A stretch of 33,125 nucleotides of DNA, taken from the NCBI GenBank assembly GCA_025935615.1, contig JAICUY010000013.1, positions 1 to 33,125 on the forward strand, in the 5' to 3' direction. The position numbers and the translations under genes were made by a program. Below the pieces are notes generated by a model, which was given only the letters and a program-made list of their open reading frames with translations, did not search any database and was not told where the DNA came from. Shown in pieces: positions 24,804-33,125 of the stretch. Every line of letters starts with the position of its first letter. The first letter of the stretch is position 1. Source of the stretch: Steroidobacteraceae bacterium. Lineage in GTDB: Bacteria; Chloroflexota; Limnocylindria; QHBO01.

Positions 24804-27800
24804 TCAACGGAACATCCGCTGCTGCCGGGCGAGCTCGATGGCCGGCTCGGCGGCGACCTCGTCGACGCTGCGCAACCGCCGGGCGACGACGTTGAGCACC
24901 TCGCCCTCGACCTGCAGGACGCCATCGACCACCAGCAGCGGGTGACGGTGCAACAGGCTCCGGTGCTGCTGGTAGACGTCGGGGCGCACCGTCACGTTGA
25001 TCATGCCGCTCTCATCCTCGAGCGCGATGAAGACGAAGTACTTGGCGGTCATCGGGTGCTGGATGCTGACCGCCAAGCCCGCCAGACGGACCATCGACCG
25101 ATCGCGCCGCCGCCCCGCCTCGGCCACCCGGATCACGCCGCGCGCCGCCAGGCGTGACCGGTACAGCTCGACGGCGTGCAGGTGCGGGCTGACGCCGGTG
25201 TCGCGGTAGTCGGCGGCGACGCGCTCCGCATCGGTCATGGGCGGCAGCGAAGCGCCGAGAGCGCGCTGGGCGTCGTCGGTCAGGCCGAGCGCCGGATGCG
25301 CCGGGTCGGCATCGGCAAGGGTGGTGCGCAGCTGCCAGAGCAACTCGCGGCGTGGCGCATCGGTCCAGTCGAAGGCCCCGACGCTGATGAGCCGTTCGAC
25401 GACCTGTTCGCCCAGGCCGGTGCGCGCCACGAACTCCCTGACGGACCGATACGGACCACGCGCGCGCTCCTCGGTGAGCCGCTGCCGCTCGGCCTCGCCG
25501 ATGCCCTTGACCTGGCTCAGCCCCAGGCGCAGCGCAAACTGCCTGCTGGCCGGCGCCCGTTTGCGGGGGGAGCAATCCACGGCTGGAGAGATGCGCGAAT
25601 CGGCCTCACCTTCGCCGTTACTTGCGCCACCGACAAACGGATCGCGTTCAAGGGGCTCGGTGTCGTGCTCCCAGGCCGATGCGTTGACGTCGACCGGCAG
25701 CACGATGACGCCGTGGCGCTTGGCGTCGTTGACGATCACTGCCGGCGAGTAGAAGCCCATCGGCTGGTTGTTGAGGATGCCGGCGTAGTAGTGCACCGGA
25801 TAGTGGAGCTTCAGCCAGGCGGTGTCGTAGGTGATCTTGGCGAACGCGGCGGCGTGCGCCCGCGCGAAGCCGAACTCGGCGAACGCGCCACAGCGCTTGA
25901 ACAGCTCCTCGGCGTTCTCGGGCGTCAGGCCCGTGCGCTGGGCGCCGGCCACGAAGCGGGCGTGCTCCTTCTCCATCTCGCGGTGGCTGCGGTGGCTGCC
26001 CATCGCCTTGCGGAAGATGTCGGCCTCGAGCGCCGAGTAGCCGCAGACGTCGATCGCGATCTGCATCACCTGCTCCTGGTAGAGGATCACGCCGAGCGTG
26101 TCGGCGAGGATCGGTTCAAGGCTGGGATGGAGGTAGGCGACCTCCTCCGCACCGGCGCGCCGCCGCAGGTACGGGTGGACGGCATTGCCCTGGATCGGGC
26201 CGGGCCGGATGATCGCCACCTGGACCACCAGGTCCTCGAAGCGCTCGGGACGGGCCTTGGGCAGCGCCTGCATCTGGGCGCGGCTCTCGATCTGGAACAT
26301 GCCGACCGTGTCGGCGCTGCGGATGGTCGCGAAGACCTCGGGGTCGTCATGCGACAGGCTGTCGAGATCCGGCCGTTGCTGCGTGTCGCGCTCGATGCGG
26401 TCGAGCGCGTCGCTGACCACGCCAAGGGTGCGCAGGGAGAGCAGATCGATCTTGACCAGGCCGAGCTGCTCGACGTCCTCCTTGTCGTACTGGGTCACGA
26501 CCCGGTTGGGCATGGTCGCCTTCTCGATCGGCACCAGATCGATGAGTGGAGTACGGGTGACGAGCATGCCGCCGACGTGGATGCCGAGGTGCCGCGGAAA
26601 GCCGTCGATCTCGCCGCAGAGGGTGAGCAGCCACTGCCAGCGGTTGCGCGGATGGGCGTGGATGACGGCAGCCCCATCGGGGTCGGACACGTCGGACACG
26701 TCGGCGTCGTCGGCGTCGGATCCGTGCGGTGCTTGCCAGACTTGCATGGCAGCGGGCTTAGACGGGCGCCTGGCCGGCGCGGACGCCGTCGATGGCTGCG
26801 GATCGCCTCGGATGCCCAGATTCGCGGGATTTATGGGCCGATTTCCATTGAGGGCAGCCGCCTGGGGCACGTGCGCTTCGCCTAAGCCGATCCTCGTGCT
26901 CGTTTGGCCAGGTTCAGGGCCGCCGGCGATCGACAGCACCGACCGCCGGCGCCGCTCCTCGACCGGCATCCCGCTCTCCGGATCAAGGCGCACCATCGCG
27001 CGCCGCTCGCCCGCCGGCCCGGGCGAGCCGGTGTCACGCGGCTGCGGCAGATGGTCTGGCTCGACGCCGCCGGCATAGCGCTTCGTCTGTGTCGCCTCGA
27101 ACCGGACGGCCGTCACCGACTGGTCGAAGACACGGGGCCGCTTCGGCGGGTACCAGCCGCCCTCGGACACCGGCCGGCCACGCCCGTCGCGACCGGGCGG
27201 GACGGCCGCCGCCTCCATGTCGATCCCCAGCTCGTCGAACAGCCACGCGAATGAGCCGTCCAGCGCCAGGTCGCGGGCCACGTCGGCCGCGTCACGCGTG
27301 TCGAGCGCCTTGGCCAGCTTGTCGACCGATTCTGCCGGGAAGCCGAGCGCCTTGGCCACCTCGCGCACGGCGCTCCGGGCACGGTAGGTGACGATGGTGC
27401 AGACCATGGCCGCATGGTCGGCGCCGTACTTCTGATAGAGGTACTGGATCACCTCCTCGCGGCGGTTGACGTCGAAATCGATGTCGATGTCGGGCAGCGT
27501 GCGCGCCTCGTTGATGAAGCGCTCGAACAGCAGCTTGTGCTCGATCGGGTCGACCTTGGTGATGCCCAGGCAGTAGGCCACGATCGAGTCGCCGGCGCTC
27601 CCCCGCCCCTGGCCGATGATCCCGTTCCGCCGGGCGAACTCCATGAGATCCCACACGATCAGGAAGAACTCGGCGAGATGCGTGCGCTCGATGATGTCGA
27701 GCTCGTGGGTCAGCTGCTGCAGCGCACGCTTGGTAATGGGCCGGTAACGCCGCAGTAAGCCGTCATGTGCAAGCTGGTAGAGATATGAGAACGGCGTCTC

Positions 27801-28829
27801 GCCCTCGGGGACCGTGTAGCCCGGGAACCGATAGCGTTCGAAGTTCAGGTCCAGCCGGCAGGCCTGACCGATGCGGCCCGCCTGCGCCATCCCGTCGCGC
27901 CACGCGCGGCGCGACGTCGCGTCGGGTAATGCGTCGCCGATGGCGGCGAGCTCGGCTTCCGGCTTGAGCCGATACTCCGCGTTGGGCAGCAGCAGCTCGC
28001 TCGCCTGTTCCAGTGTCGCGCCGTGGCGGATGCAGACCAGCACGTCCTGGAGCCGATGCCCACCGGGTTCGGCGTAATGCACCTCGTTGGTCACGACCGT
28101 CGGCAGGCCGGCGCGCTGCGCCAGCTCGGCGAGCTGTGCCACGAGCCAGTCGTCATCCGGCTGCAGGTGGTGGCTGAGCTCCACTCCGAAGCTGCCCTCC
28201 GGGAAGTGGCCGGCCCAGCGTTGTGCCGCGGCCAGCGCCGCGTCGTCATCGCCGGCCAGCAGGCGATGCGGAACCTCGCCGTTGCGACAGCCGGAAAGGC
28301 CGAACAGGTGGCCCCACGCCTCGTCGAGCGCCGCTTCAACCAGGCTTGACTCAAAGATCGGGAACTGCTTCTCACCGGCCTGATGGCCGCGGCTGGCGAG
28401 GCGCGACAGGGCGGTGTAGCCGTCGCTGTCGGCGGCCAGCAGGACGAGGTGGTCGCCGGGCATCGGCCCGGCATGCAGCTCGCCCGGCCAGCCGCGGCTG
28501 GCGCGCTCCCCGCGCAACGGGTCGTTCAGCTTCCGGCCGCGACGCGCCAGGCGCAGCTCGCCGTCGTCGCGCGGGATGGCGAGCTCGAGGCCGATGATCG
28601 GCTGCACCGGGGAGAGCTTCGCGGCGCGGGCGGCATCGGTTCGGGTCTGCTCAGCTGCCTTGGCCAGGCGCACCGCGGCATACAGGCCGGCGTGATCGGT
28701 GACGGCGAGGGCGGGCAGCTCGAGCAGCGCGGCCTGCGCCACCAGGTCCTCCACGTGGCTGGCGCCGTCGAGGAAGCTGAAGTTGGTGTGCGCGTGCAGC
28801 TCGCAGTAGGCGAGGTCCGGCGTGCCCAT
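24804..28829 (-). CDS. dnaE2: Error-prone DNA polymerase DnaE2 (ImuC-type)
   Basis: C-family polymerase alpha subunit for damage-tolerant synthesis. The 1,341-residue product opens with a PHP domain (ELHAHTNFSFLDGASH, metal-type His12 and His14). The palm has PDIDIDFDVNRR with aspartates 447-451 and a third, D795, in VKIDLLSLRTLG. DnaE2 rather than DnaE1 is indicated by FGFARAHAAAFA, LNNQPMGFYSPA and RHGVIVLPVDVNAS, and by the C-terminal OB domain with TAKYFVFIALEDESG. DnaE2 is usually near 1,050-1,100 residues; the excess is a low-complexity insertion at about 541-725 and a smaller one (WEHDTEPLERDPFVGG onwards). The frame is open throughout. A perfect LexA-like palindrome lies 15 bp upstream. 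No imuB-like gene is seen in the window. Confidence 0.92.
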   Translation of the reverse strand: MGTPDLAYCELHAHTNFSFLDGASHVEDLVAQAALLELPALAVTDHAGLYAAVRLAKAAEQTRTDAARAAKLSPVQPIIGLELAIPRDDGELRLARRGRKLNDPLRGERASRGWPGELHAGPMPGDHLVLLAADSDGYTALSRLASRGHQAGEKQFPIFESSLVEAALDEAWGHLFGLSGCRNGEVPHRLLAGDDDAALAAAQRWAGHFPEGSFGVELSHHLQPDDDWLVAQLAELAQRAGLPTVVTNEVHYAEPGGHRLQDVLVCIRHGATLEQASELLLPNAEYRLKPEAELAAIGDALPDATSRRAWRDGMAQAGRIGQACRLDLNFERYRFPGYTVPEGETPFSYLYQLAHDGLLRRYRPITKRALQQLTHELDIIERTHLAEFFLIVWDLMEFARRNGIIGQGRGSAGDSIVAYCLGITKVDPIEHKLLFERFINEARTLPDIDIDFDVNRREEVIQYLYQKYGADHAAMVCTIVTYRARSAVREVAKALGFPAESVDKLAKALDTRDAADVARDLALDGSFAWLFDELGIDMEAAAVPPGRDGRGRPVSEGGWYPPKRPRVFDQSVTAVRFEATQTKRYAGGVEPDHLPQPRDTGSPGPAGERRAMVRLDPESGMPVEERRRRSVLSIAGGPEPGQTSTRIGLGEAHVPQAAALNGNRPINPANLGIRGDPQPSTASAPARRPSKPAAMQVWQAPHGSDADDADVSDVSDPDGAAVIHAHPRNRWQWLLTLCGEIDGFPRHLGIHVGGMLVTRTPLIDLVPIEKATMPNRVVTQYDKEDVEQLGLVKIDLLSLRTLGVVSDALDRIERDTQQRPDLDSLSHDDPEVFATIRSADTVGMFQIESRAQMQALPKARPERFEDLVVQVAIIRPGPIQGNAVHPYLRRRAGAEEVAYLHPSLEPILADTLGVILYQEQVMQIAIDVCGYSALEADIFRKAMGSHRSHREMEKEHARFVAGAQRTGLTPENAEELFKRCGAFAEFGFARAHAAAFAKITYDTAWLKLHYPVHYYAGILNNQPMGFYSPAVIVNDAKRHGVIVLPVDVNASAWEHDTEPLERDPFVGGASNGEGEADSRISPAVDCSPRKRAPASRQFALRLGLSQVKGIGEAERQRLTEERARGPYRSVREFVARTGLGEQVVERLISVGAFDWTDAPRRELLWQLRTTLADADPAHPALGLTDDAQRALGASLPPMTDAERVAADYRDTGVSPHLHAVELYRSRLAARGVIRVAEAGRRRDRSMVRLAGLAVSIQHPMTAKYFVFIALEDESGMINVTVRPDVYQQHRSLLHRHPLLVVDGVLQVEGEVLNVVARRLRSVDEVAAEPAIELARQQRMFR
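26682..26717 (-). repeat. Four 9-bp tandem repeats inside dnaE2
   Basis: Plus-strand units GTCGGACAC, GTCGGACAC, GTCGGCGTC and GTCGGCGTC follow each other exactly. They encode the Asp/Ser-rich DADDADVSDVSD stretch of the DnaE2 insertion. In-frame 9-bp units can change in number by replication slippage without breaking the gene. Confidence 0.8.
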
Positions 28830-28843
28830 CAGACCGACTAGGA

Positions 28844-28859
28844 TAGAACATATGTTCTA
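28844..28859. promoter_or_regulatory. LexA (SOS) box upstream of dnaE2
   Basis: TAGAACATATGTTCTA is a perfect 16-bp palindrome containing GAAC-N4-GTTC, the core recognised by gram-positive-type LexA. It sits in the 42-bp gap between the LLM oxidoreductase stop and the dnaE2 ATG, 15 bp before that ATG. dnaE2 genes are classic SOS members in other bacteria, which supports the call. Confidence 0.85.
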
Positions 28860-28871
28860 CCCACCGGAACG

Positions 28872-29780
28872 CTAGCCCGCCAGCGCCTCCAGCGTGGCCA
28901 CGTGCTCGCTGACGCCGTCCGGGCCGATGGGAATGATGGCGACGTGGTCGGCGCCGGCCGCCACGAACTCGGCGATCCGAGCGCGCACATCGTCCACGCC
29001 GCCGACCACGACCATCGCGTCGACCAGCCGGTCGCTGCCAGGCTTCTCCCAGTCGGCCGCCTCGAATCCCTGCAACTCCCAGCTGGCGTGGTAGGTCGGA
29101 GTCCGCAGGTACGGCGCGAGGTAGGCGCGGGCGGCGACCCGTGCCTGGTCGGCATCGTCGTACAGGGCGACCGGCATGGTGACGGCCAGCGTGGCGCGCG
29201 GCGCATCGGCGCTGGCCACCGCACCGTCGAGCAGCGTCCGCATCTCGGCGATGCGTTCCGGCGTGACGAGGTACGGGAAGGCGCCATCCGCCTCGACCGC
29301 AGCCAGCGCCAGCATGCGCTCGCGAAGCGCCGCGACCAGGATCAGCGGCTCGCCGGCCGGCTGTGGCGGCATCGGTCCCTTGTAGATCGCGGAGCGGTAG
29401 GCCGCCAGGTATTCGCGCATGCGGGTCAGCGGGCGATCGAAGTGATGACCGCGCAGCTTCTCGGCAAGGTGCGGGTGCGAAACGCCGAGTCCGAGCACGA
29501 AGCGTCCCTCGGTCATCTCGTGGATGGTCATGGCGGCCATGCGCGTGGTCTGTGCGTCTCGCGCCCAGATGCTGGCGATGCTGGTGCCCAGCTTCATGGT
29601 GGTGGTCGCCTCGGCGATGCCGGCCAGCAGGGCGAACGGCTCGCGACCGACCGTCTCCGCGACCCACAGCGTGCCGTAGCCGAGCTCATCGGCGCGCCGT
29701 GCGTAGTCACGGCTCTCGGCGATCGACAGGCTGTCGAGGTGGCCCCACAGGCCGAGCCGCCCAAGATCGAGATCGGTCAT
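28872..29780 (-). CDS. F420-dependent LLM-class oxidoreductase
   Basis: Luciferase-like (beta/alpha)8-barrel enzyme of 302 residues; this class moves hydride between F420 and varied substrates. Family features include LGYGTLWVAETVGREPF, KLGTSIASIWARDAQTT, the MTIHEMTEGRFVLGLGVSHPHL stretch (core ALGLGVS-like GLGVSHP), RMREYLAAYRSAIYKGP and the C-terminal VDDVRARIAEFVAAGADHVAI. Use of F420 is inferred from family resemblance; some LLM enzymes use FMN. Start is the ATG at 29778-29780, 9 nt after the RibD-like stop and without a ribosome-binding site. A TAGCAT six bases upstream could be a -10 box but overlaps that stop codon. The gene is followed by the LexA box of dnaE2. Confidence 0.87.
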   Translation of the reverse strand: MTDLDLGRLGLWGHLDSLSIAESRDYARRADELGYGTLWVAETVGREPFALLAGIAEATTTMKLGTSIASIWARDAQTTRMAAMTIHEMTEGRFVLGLGVSHPHLAEKLRGHHFDRPLTRMREYLAAYRSAIYKGPMPPQPAGEPLILVAALRERMLALAAVEADGAFPYLVTPERIAEMRTLLDGAVASADAPRATLAVTMPVALYDDADQARVAARAYLAPYLRTPTYHASWELQGFEAADWEKPGSDRLVDAMVVVGGVDDVRARIAEFVAAGADHVAIIPIGPDGVSEHVATLEALAG

Positions 29781-29789
29781 CGACCGATG

Positions 29790-30542
29790 CTACCCAAACC
29801 GATACCGAAGGAAGAGTTCGTCGTCATTGCGATGCACGCTCACCAGTGATCCGCGACGTGGATGATCCGCCCACGGCGATCCGCCGGGCAGCGCCGCGAT
29901 CATCGGCAGCGCGTCGCTGCCCACCAGCCTGGCGCCGACGGTCCAGAAGATCTCGTCGAGAGCGCCCGCCGCCAGGAAGGCGGCGTTGACCGTCGGCCCT
30001 CCCTCGAGCAGGACCGATTCGATCCCTCGCTCGGCGACCTGGGCCAGCAGCCAGTGGGGCTCTGGATCGTCCGTCGGCGCCCGCAAGAGCTCGACGCCGG
30101 CCATCGGCGCCTGGGGGTTGGCGGTGCCGACGAACAGCATTCGTCCACCCTCGTCGCCGTGCCAGCGCTCGAGGTCGACCGGCGTCGAGCCGGCGATCAC
30201 CAGGCTGAGCGGCTGTGCGCTGCGACCGGCAGCGCGTCGGCGCTCGGCCAGCTCGGGCGGGACGCCGGGCCAGAAGCCGGTGGCGCGCAGCGTGCCGGCA
30301 CCGCTGGCCACGGCGTCGAACCCGGCCCGCAGCAGCCGCATCACACGCCGGTCGACGCGCGACCCGAGGCCCTCGGCGGTACCCGCCACCTGGGCGCGGC
30401 CGTCGACGCTGGTCACCATGTTGATGGCGACGTACGGCCGCCCCGCCCCCGACGAGGGGAGGTCGAGGTCGGCGAACGCCTCGTCGAGCGGGAGATCGCT
30501 CGCCGGATCGGGAAAGAGGCGGTCGATGTGCAGGTCGCTCAC
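29790..30542 (-). CDS. RibD C-terminal-domain reductase (pyrimidine reductase family)
   Basis: NADPH-dependent reductase of the dihydrofolate-reductase-like fold, as in riboflavin synthesis; 250 residues with only the RibD-C domain and no deaminase. Key segments are INMVTSVDGRAQVAG, SRVDRRVMRLLRAGFDAVASGAGTLR (core GAGTLR), and the nucleotide-binding VLLEGGPTVNAAFL with LDEIFWTVGARLVG. The first natural-looking start is the GTG at 30540-30542; the frame opens 12 codons earlier with no support. A TACGAT box lies eight bases upstream. It probably shares an mRNA with the LLM gene. Whether the substrate is the riboflavin intermediate or another pyrimidine or pterin cannot be told. Confidence 0.85.
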   Translation of the reverse strand: MSDLHIDRLFPDPASDLPLDEAFADLDLPSSGAGRPYVAINMVTSVDGRAQVAGTAEGLGSRVDRRVMRLLRAGFDAVASGAGTLRATGFWPGVPPELAERRRAAGRSAQPLSLVIAGSTPVDLERWHGDEGGRMLFVGTANPQAPMAGVELLRAPTDDPEPHWLLAQVAERGIESVLLEGGPTVNAAFLAAGALDEIFWTVGARLVGSDALPMIAALPGGSPWADHPRRGSLVSVHRNDDELFLRYRFG

Positions 30543-30550
30543 GCCGGCTG

Positions 30551-30556
30551 ATCGTA
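30551..30556 (-). promoter_or_regulatory. -10 box adjacent to the RibD-like start codon
   Basis: TACGAT on the minus strand, eight bases before the GTG at 30542, in the gap after the ABC permease gene. It would give an almost leaderless mRNA. The -35 is not recognisable, so confidence is low. Confidence 0.3.
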
Positions 30557-30594
30557 CGCCCGGCGGCTGACAACGCACGGCCTCGCAGGCGCGG

Positions 30595-31464
30595 CTAGTC
30601 CACCTCGACCAGCCCGCGATTGGCGCGGATGCGTCGTTCGATGCTGCCGAAGACGAGCTGGTCGACGGCGATGCCGATCGCCAGCACCACGATCATGGTG
30701 GCCAGCAGGCCGGTGGCATCCGACATCTCGCGCTGGAACTGGAGCATGACGCCCAGTGACGGCCGCTCGGCGATGATCACCAACAGCTCCCCGGCCATCA
30801 GGCTGCGCCAGGCGAACGCCCACGCCTGCTTCATGCCGGCCAGGAATGACGGCAGTGCCGCCGGCAGGACGATGAATCGGTAGAACCCGAGACCGCGAGC
30901 GCCAAGCACCCGCCCGGCGCGCAGCTGGATGCGCGGGATGTGGTCGACGCCGTGGATCAGCCCGTTCGCCACCGAGGGCGCCGCGCCGAGGACGATGACG
31001 AACAGGATGGCGCCCTCGCTCAGGCCGAAGAGCAGGATCGCGAACGGAAACCAGGCGATGGACGGCATCGTCTGCAGACCGGTGATCAACGAGGCGACCG
31101 CGGTGCGCAACAGTCGCCAGCGGACGATGGCCAGGCCCAGCAATGAACCGATCGCGACGGCCAGCGCGAAGCCGATCGCCGCGCGCCCCAGCGTCGTCGC
31201 GACCGCGGCCGGCAGGTCGTCGCCCAGCTCCTGGACGATGCGCGGCAAGACAGCGGCCGGTCCCGGGAGCACCCATGGCGGCCGCCAGCCGCTGGCGACC
31301 ACCACCTGCCAGGCGACGAGCACGAGCCCGACGGCGGCAAGCTGCGGCCAGGCCCCGAGCCAGGCGCGCCGCAACCGGCCGGGCCGTGGGGCGATCGGCA
31401 GCTCGAGCGCGTCGAGACCCGCCAGCGCCTGGTTACGCCGTCCGACGATGTCAGCCGGCTGCAT
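30595..31464 (-). CDS. ABC transporter permease, SsuC/TauC/NrtB type
   Basis: Inner-membrane permease of 289 residues with about six helices in a BPD_transp_1 domain (about 85-270). The cytoplasmic EAA-type loop that contacts the ATPase is seen around GRVLGARGLGFYRFIVLPAALPSFLAGMKQAWAFAW (core LPAALPSFLAGMK). The N-terminus has a long hydrophilic stretch before helix 1. This type imports sulfonates, taurine, nitrate, cyanate or thiamine precursors; sequence alone does not choose. The ATG at 31462-31464 overlaps the ATPase gene by 14 bp, so it is the third gene of a binding protein-ATPase-permease operon. Confidence 0.92.
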   Translation of the reverse strand: MQPADIVGRRNQALAGLDALELPIAPRPGRLRRAWLGAWPQLAAVGLVLVAWQVVVASGWRPPWVLPGPAAVLPRIVQELGDDLPAAVATTLGRAAIGFALAVAIGSLLGLAIVRWRLLRTAVASLITGLQTMPSIAWFPFAILLFGLSEGAILFVIVLGAAPSVANGLIHGVDHIPRIQLRAGRVLGARGLGFYRFIVLPAALPSFLAGMKQAWAFAWRSLMAGELLVIIAERPSLGVMLQFQREMSDATGLLATMIVVLAIGIAVDQLVFGSIERRIRANRGLVEVD

Positions 31465-32248
31465 GACGCGCGACCTCCTGGCGCAGCCGAGACGCCACGC
31501 GGTCAGCGAGTGCGGCGACCGACGGATCTGCCAGCGTGCGTGGCCGCCGGAGCGGCACCTCGACCTCCTCCACGATCGTCCCTGGCCGGCTGCTCATGAC
31601 CACGACCCGATCGGCCAGACGGATCGCCTCGCGCACGTCGTGCGTGACGAACATGATGGTCATGGCGCTGTCGGCCCACAGCGACTCGAGCTCGTCGTGG
31701 AGCAGGTCACGGGTCATGGCGTCGACCGCGCCGAACGGCTCGTCCATGAGCAGCACGTCGGCGCCCTGGGCCAACGCCCGTGCCAGCGCGGCGCGCTGGC
31801 GCATGCCACCCGACAGCTCGTGGGGTCGGCGGTCGCCGAAACCGCCCAGATGGACGCGCGCCAGCAGCTCCTCGCTGCGCCGCGCGCGCTCGGTCCGCGC
31901 CACGCCAGCCAGCCGCAGTGCCAGCTCGACGTTCTGCGAGGTGGTCAGCCACGGAAACAGCGCTGCGTCCTGGAAGAGCAGACCGACGCGACCCTGAACG
32001 TCGATCGTGCCCTTCTGCGGCTGATCGAGCCCCGCCAGCAGGCTGAGCAGCGTGCTCTTGCCACAGCCCGACGCGCCGACCAGGCAGACGAAGCTGCCCC
32101 GCTCGACGGTGAGCGTCACGTCAGACAGCGCCAGGACATGGTTGCCGCGTGGACCGTAGGCGCGATGGACGTGGCCGACCCGGATCGCCGGCCCTGCTGC
32201 GCCGTTCCCCGCCGTTTCCCGCCGTTCGAGCGGGTGTGGCGCGATCAC
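31451..32248 (-). CDS. ABC transporter ATP-binding protein, SsuB/TauB/NrtD type
   Basis: Cytoplasmic ATPase that powers the importer; 265 residues. Walker A GASGCGKST (58-66), Q-loop Gln93, signature LSGGMRQRAALARAL (from 145), Walker B LLMDEPFGAVD with D169 and E170, and the switch His203 in VTHDVREA are all intact, so it should be active. The NHVLALSDVTLTVERG opening and the RPGTIVEEVEVPL tail are typical of the nitrate/sulfonate/taurine group. It starts with a GTG (32246-32248) forming a GTGA overlap with the stop of the binding protein gene, and overlaps the permease start by 14 bp, so all three are translationally coupled. Confidence 0.95.
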   Translation of the reverse strand: MIAPHPLERRETAGNGAAGPAIRVGHVHRAYGPRGNHVLALSDVTLTVERGSFVCLVGASGCGKSTLLSLLAGLDQPQKGTIDVQGRVGLLFQDAALFPWLTTSQNVELALRLAGVARTERARRSEELLARVHLGGFGDRRPHELSGGMRQRAALARALAQGADVLLMDEPFGAVDAMTRDLLHDELESLWADSAMTIMFVTHDVREAIRLADRVVVMSSRPGTIVEEVEVPLRRPRTLADPSVAALADRVASRLRQEVARHAAG

Positions 32249-33125
32249 TCCCCCACCTCCCGCGCGCCGCGCTCGCGGAGGACCTCGTTGAGCAGCGTGA
32301 GGTCATGGATGCCGTCGAGGTTGACGCGGTCGAGCAACCCAAGCTGTTCGGCATGCTGCGCGGTCACCTGCAGCGAGGACGCGATGGGGTCGACGGTGAA
32401 GGTCAGGTTGTGCCAAGCGGTCTCGAGGGTGGATGCAGGCAGCGTCGCATCGGTCAGGTCGGCGATTGCCTTGCCGACGGTCGACTGCGCCTCCGCCGGG
32501 TGCTGGTTCACCCAGTCCGTCGCCTCGACGTGACCGATGAGCAGTCGCTTCACGATCTCCGGATGGGCTGAGAGGAACTGCGTGGTGACGATGAGATCGG
32601 TCGTCACGAAGCGGCCGCCGGGCCACAGGTCGCGCTCATCGACCAGGACGTGGCCGCGCCCTTCCTGGACCATGCGCGTTGCCCACGGCTCGGGAACCCA
32701 GGCGCCGTCGATGCTGCCCGTCACGAAGGCCTGCAGCGCGTCGCCATTCGCCTGTGGCCTCACCGATACATCGCCACCGCCTTCGAGGTTGGCAGCCAGC
32801 CCCTGCTCGTTCAGCCAGGCACGCAGCGCGACGTCCTGGGTATTCCCGAGCTGCGGCGTGGCCAGGGTTGTGCCGCGCAGGTCATCGACCGTATCGATGC
32901 CGGACCGGACGACCAGCGCGGCACCACCGGAGGTCGCGCCGGCGATGATGCGGATGGCCTGCCCGGCTGAGCGCGCATAGGCATTGATGGCCGGATTCGG
33001 GCCGATGTAGGCCGCGTCGAGCGCCCCGCTGAAGATGGCCTCCACGACCTCGGGTCCGGCGTTGAATGCCTGGCTGCGCAGCTCCACGTCGCTGCCCAGC
33101 GCATCGGCCAGGATCCCGCGCTCGA
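32245..33125 (-). CDS. ABC transporter substrate-binding protein (NMT1/SsuA-like), partial
   Basis: Extracellular solute-binding protein of the COG0715 type; 293 residues visible, with the N-terminus and signal peptide beyond the window edge. Family marks are SGALDAAYIGPNPAINAYARS, the hinge-region GTTLATPQLGNTQDVALRAWL (core LATPQLGNTQD), the INGAWVPEPWATRM-type segment (here SIDGAWVPEPWATRM) and the VTTDLIVTTQFLSAHPEIVKRLL helix. These fit aliphatic sulfonate, taurine or nitrate binders; the ligand is not fixed. The start is not in the window. The stop overlaps the ATPase start. Confidence 0.92.
   Translation of the reverse strand, partial: ERGILADALGSDVELRSQAFNAGPEVVEAIFSGALDAAYIGPNPAINAYARSAGQAIRIIAGATSGGAALVVRSGIDTVDDLRGTTLATPQLGNTQDVALRAWLNEQGLAANLEGGGDVSVRPQANGDALQAFVTGSIDGAWVPEPWATRMVQEGRGHVLVDERDLWPGGRFVTTDLIVTTQFLSAHPEIVKRLLIGHVEATDWVNQHPAEAQSTVGKAIADLTDATLPASTLETAWHNLTFTVDPIASSLQVTAQHAEQLGLLDRVNLDGIHDLTLLNEVLRERGAREVGE

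Follow-up and report, generated by a model that had tools for sequence, protein, structure and literature searches.

The analysed window, a stretch of 33,125 nt with a G+C content of 70%, carries a minus-strand gene for an error-prone DNA polymerase (Table 1), whose ATG at 28829 is separated by a gap of 42 bp from the end of the upstream gene at 28872. The gap holds a perfect 16-bp palindrome. Its core, GAACATATGTTC at 28846-28857, is an exact GAAC-N4-GTTC dyad of the LexA operator class, placed at the very start of dnaE2; on the minus strand, the region upstream of the gene reads GTTCCGGTGGGTAGAACATATGTTCTATCCTAGTCGGTCTGATGGGC. Both the sequence and its location in the gap agree with the original prediction, which had described a perfect palindrome of this type before an ImuC-type polymerase; the adjacency to the polymerase start holds as well, with a distance to the ATG of 14 bp rather than the proposed 15 bp.

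The product of the polymerase gene matches the NF004225 model of error-prone DNA polymerases with 1053 bits (cut-off 939), and its Pfam domains comprise PHP, polymerase, finger, HHH, and OB, after which the chain stops. DnaE1-like pieces are encoded separately in the same genome, on contigs C75 and C99. The model match, the end after the OB domain, and the status of a second copy beside DnaE1 characterize the protein as a predicted DnaE2 (ImuC). Among the named entries of the genome collection, the proteins closest to it come from Chloroflexi MAGs, with 72% (a partial sequence) and 47% identity. Residues ~515-730 (window positions 26640-27287) constitute a poorly conserved insertion of ~200 residues between two stretches of the polymerase model, and this part is variable in relatives too.

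DnaE2 works together with ImuA and ImuB. Neither imuA nor imuB was found in the organism's own assembly, which is 68% complete. Most relatives encode the pair, with the one-strand order imuA, imuB, RibD_C gene, LLM oxidoreductase gene, other genes, and dnaE2. The window keeps the order dnaE2, oxidoreductase gene, and RibD_C gene, followed by the ABC transporter and the contig end; a synteny comparison found no match to the transporter at the corresponding place in relatives. The organism's own imuA and imuB may lie just past the contig end or may have been lost.

Table 1. Features of the dnaE2 locus (window coordinates)
Feature	Position	Strand	Basis and remarks
LexA operator (SOS box), predicted: TAGAACATATGTTCTA	28844..28859		exact match, family conservation, matrix score
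dnaE2 (imuC), 1341-aa error-prone DNA polymerase III alpha homologue	24804..28829	-	NF004225, Pfam domains
-10-like hexamer TATCCT	28840..28845	-	its TA also belongs to the right arm of the box; TATCAT in most relatives
Possible -35 hexamer TTCCGG	28864..28869	-	spaced 18 bp from the -10; many relatives have a TTCCC-type sequence
LLM-class F420-dependent oxidoreductase	28872..29780	-	TIGR03620 above cut-off; between imuAB and dnaE2 in relatives too
RibD_C-domain protein	29790..30578	-	PF01872; in relatives, located between the oxidoreductase gene and imuAB
ABC transporter (permease, ATPase, NMT1-like binding protein)	30595..33123	-	Pfam; extends to the contig end; relatives carry imuAB on this side

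The palindromy as such carries little weight. A perfect 16-bp palindrome had been regarded as very unlikely by chance in this DNA, and that argument was abandoned: the window contains four of them, compared with a mean of 2.5 (maximum 8) in dinucleotide shuffles. The rare thing is the exact box inside the 42-bp gap. Within the window, GAACN4GTTC occurs exactly once, as the palindrome itself, with expectations of 0.26 per window and ~2.4e-4 per 42-bp gap. The genome-wide site count constitutes poor evidence, as the organism's own 1.88-Mb assembly contains 24 exact sites vs. 8 occurrences of the reversed control pattern and ~14 expected by composition. Numerous exact sites fall within genes; many of the matches in the genome are background, from which promoter position and flanking bases tell the others apart. 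With a matrix trained on the sites of relatives, from which the dnaE2-promoter set and the own-genome sites were left out, the window site scores 26.2 and takes the sixth place among the 24 exact sites of the genome. The ranking puts it among the sites of lexA, uvrA, and a gene for an 87-aa protein (see below), well above the intragenic matches. The best-scoring box of the genome (L028:2020-2031, contig C75) lies upstream of a 96-aa ORF followed by a DnaE1-type polymerase gene, while another high-scoring box (27.6; L026:2022-2033, contig C63) has no convincing downstream gene.

Conservation was assessed in the 22-genome GTDB family to which the organism belongs, with 16 distinct readable dnaE2 starts, its own included. 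The exact box precedes dnaE2 in 15 of these loci, so that the palindrome is kept in close relatives, a point on which the original prediction had been made to depend. In the remaining locus (genome G001) the right half-site is absent together with the -10, which may be due to an assembly error. In most of the 15 loci, 16 bp lie between the end of the box and the aligned ATG, with predicted start codons differing in a few. In an alignment of these loci anchored on the box, row selection by itself makes the half-sites invariant, and the bases outside them serve as an independent test: the TA on the right is present in 100% of the rows, the T and the A on the left in 100% and 93%, respectively, and then TCAT in 80-93%. 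The spacing of the box is nearly fixed, while variation affects the four central bases and the greater part of the upstream flank. Since the centre varies, the ATAT that gives the perfect 16-mer is not conserved, and the 16-bp perfection is partly accidental. The longer pattern AGAACN4GTTCT is found in 21 of the 22 family genomes, with 74 sites vs. 3 of the control pattern. Outside the family, the conservation is represented by one further, distant Chloroflexi MAG (DnaE2 47% identical), whose dnaE2 promoter reads TTGACC-GTAGAACATCCGTTCTG-TATCAT with the box in the 17-bp spacer; none of 78 other dnaE loci, mostly non-DnaE2, has a box in that promoter stretch. The four palindromes of the window, close to the ~2.5 of the shuffles, and the ~14 exact dyads that composition alone predicts per genome would be compatible with a chance sequence without function. 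Nevertheless, given the position in the 42-bp gap and the retention of the half-sites and of their spacing to the -10 and the ATG in 15 of 16 loci from diverged genera, such an origin is exceedingly improbable.

The surroundings of the box include candidate promoter elements. The -10-like hexamer lies only 10 bp from the dnaE2 ATG, and this short spacing suggests that the dnaE2 transcript would be nearly leaderless. TTCCGG, a weak match to TTGACA, possibly serves as the -35 element. A consensus sigma-70 scan of the dnaE2 upstream region called no promoter, the -10-like hexamer included. As the repeat is located just past the stop of a same-strand gene (28872), it might also be read as belonging to the upstream oxidoreductase gene, as its terminator or as a hairpin in its mRNA. 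This reading was rejected because a scan for terminators finds none, and it is very improbable on other grounds too: the stem is AT-rich and no T-run follows it, the central four bases vary freely, and in relatives dnaE2 has the same box with the oxidoreductase gene kilobases away.

The genome encodes a LexA protein, the absence of which would have spoken against the original prediction. The gene is present on contig C107 (193.8 bits, above the TIGR00498 cut-off), and its product contains the LexA_DNA_bind and Peptidase_S24 domains. In an alignment with solved LexA proteins, the Ala-Gly of the cleavage site and the two catalytic residues, Ser and Lys, match; with its cleavage and catalytic motifs intact, the protein is a canonical LexA. 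The gene is followed by dinB in a lexA-dinB operon, whose promoter is TTGACATTAGAACAGGCGTTCTGCTAGCGT with the box between the -35 and the -10. The same box was found at lexA in 21 of 21 family loci (the organism's own and all 20 readable relatives), where a TTGACA-like -35 and the -10 mostly flank it; its presence there points to autoregulation through the same operator. The presence of lexA with its box and the 15 of 16 dnaE2 loci support the claim that a LexA-type palindrome controls dnaE2. Another dyad-binding regulator could share the half-site at which LexA is predicted to bind; however, the same sequence stands in the lexA promoter at all 21 loci and before classical SOS genes, and for gram-positive bacteria GAAC-N4-GTTC has been published as the LexA motif (PMC3323433), so that use of the site by a regulator other than LexA is highly unlikely.

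Just after the lexA-dinB operon, contig C107 encodes an 87-aa protein (L010:5376-5639) with two LexA boxes upstream of its gene. An exact box is present in all 20 family loci, mostly as two boxes. A confident model (pLDDT 89.5) shows an all-beta protein, for which Foldseek returned no significant fold match; the family match to DUF6504, for 2 of 19 members and with E 0.039 at best, is too weak for an assignment. The small, mostly-beta ImuB-C domain also occurs as a stand-alone protein, often beside dinB and lexA (PMC3765255). By its size, modelled strands, and neighbourhood, the 87-aa protein is possibly such a stand-alone ImuB-C-like protein.

The same box also accompanies other DNA-repair genes in the family, in addition to the lexA-dinB operon. 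It is exact in 19 of 20 uvrA loci, the exception being a divergent match. An Lhr-type helicase has a box in this genome and in a single further genus. A DEAD-box helicase with the MrfA zinc-binding domain (L015:1-2154, contig C9; best NCBIfam match TIGR03817, below cut-off) has an exact one in 15 of 20 family loci. In relatives, imuA-imuB is preceded by an exact box of its own (16 of 16 imuA loci, two of them from one genome), built in the same way as that of dnaE2: it usually stops 16 bp short of the start codon and passes into a TATCAT -10. In some relatives (L288:78-989, L291:84-986, and L287), a LexA box also lies just before the start of an Rv2578c-like radical SAM protein (match below cut-off), 12 bp before it in two of them. 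Because the same site stands before dnaE2, lexA, and other repair genes in relatives, the palindrome is, with high confidence, predicted to be a LexA operator that represses dnaE2 by blocking its promoter.

The original prediction proposed to look for boxes at recA or lexA; unlike lexA, recA shows no proximal box in any of 18 loci (the organism's own and 17 relatives). The readable upstream sequence, up to ~1.5 kb, contains no box in the organism's own locus or in 16 of the 17 relatives' loci, and one relative has a site 389 bp upstream. The missing recA box limits the regulon and leaves the dnaE2 operator unaffected. The organism's own recA lies in two pieces at the ends of two contigs (L012 on C76 and L011 on C103); these ends have exactly 78 bp in common, past which they diverge. 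Identity to family RecA is ~88% for the C103 piece and ~78% for the C76 end; in view of this difference and of the divergence past the 78 bp, the C76 end is probably chimeric.

In an undamaged cell, a dimer of the LexA encoded on C107 would occupy the GAAC-N4-GTTC dyad within the dnaE2 promoter spacer. There it would also cover the TA with which the -10 begins, leaving RNA polymerase unable to use the promoter; as the box fills the spacer and overlaps the -10, repression would most simply work by sterically blocking RNA polymerase. Upon DNA damage, RecA filaments would promote self-cleavage of LexA at its Ala-Gly bond and thereby free the operator. The dnaE2 gene would then be transcribed from a start very near the ATG, and the error-prone polymerase would contribute to the bypass of lesions, for which its usual partners are ImuA and ImuB. 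We infer that mutagenesis might be inducible in this organism. For the family as a whole, it is an evenly balanced proposition that there is a compact regulon around mutagenic repair (dinB, imuA-imuB, and dnaE2), uvrA, and helicases, with recA outside it, that the stand-alone small beta protein under twin boxes is a further SOS component, and that near-leaderless twin promoters fire dnaE2 and imuA together.

From conservation alone, damage-inducible mutagenesis is probably wired to LexA in this family of uncultured Chloroflexota. For this family, the analysis yields the motif together with a list of genes, and it sets recA apart from the regulon; the understanding of SOS control is left unchanged. 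The operator is real and conserved, and ordinary in kind: a clear example of an already known type of control. The motif type and the position of recA outside the regulon have been known in Chloroflexota since the work on Dehalococcoides in 2002. In Dehalococcoides ethenogenes, LexA is said to recognize GAAC-N4-GTTC and, as reportedly described by Fernandez de Henestrosa and colleagues in the Journal of Bacteriology, to bind its own promoter and that of uvrA, but not that of recA. That organism shares with the present one the phylum, the motif, and the predicted exclusion of recA; it belongs to a different Chloroflexota lineage, and the regulon predicted here adds dnaE2, imuA, dinB, and helicases. 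A paper cited in PMC8565304 likewise states in its title that LexA does not bind recA in Geobacter, and on these two parallels, a recA gene outside the LexA regulon is not unusual.

The half-sites and their spacing are the same as in the LexA box of gram-positive bacteria, such as Bacillus subtilis and Mycobacterium tuberculosis (PMC3323433), and in Streptomyces the LexA targets include lexA, dnaE2, dinP, and probably uvrA (PMC9380542). These regulons include recA, whereas the family described here has no proximal recA box. The gram-positive type originally proposed for the regulon is correct for the motif, while the organism belongs to a Chloroflexota lineage and recA stands outside. LexA-regulated imuA-imuB-dnaE2 mutagenesis cassettes are known in contiguous and split forms (PMC3919608). 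As in the present locus, such cassettes carry a LexA box before dnaE2 (PMC3919608; PMC3765255). The imuA-imuB part of the relatives' cassette shares this feature in having a box of its own, and the difference lies in the split form, with oxidoreductase genes between imuAB and dnaE2.
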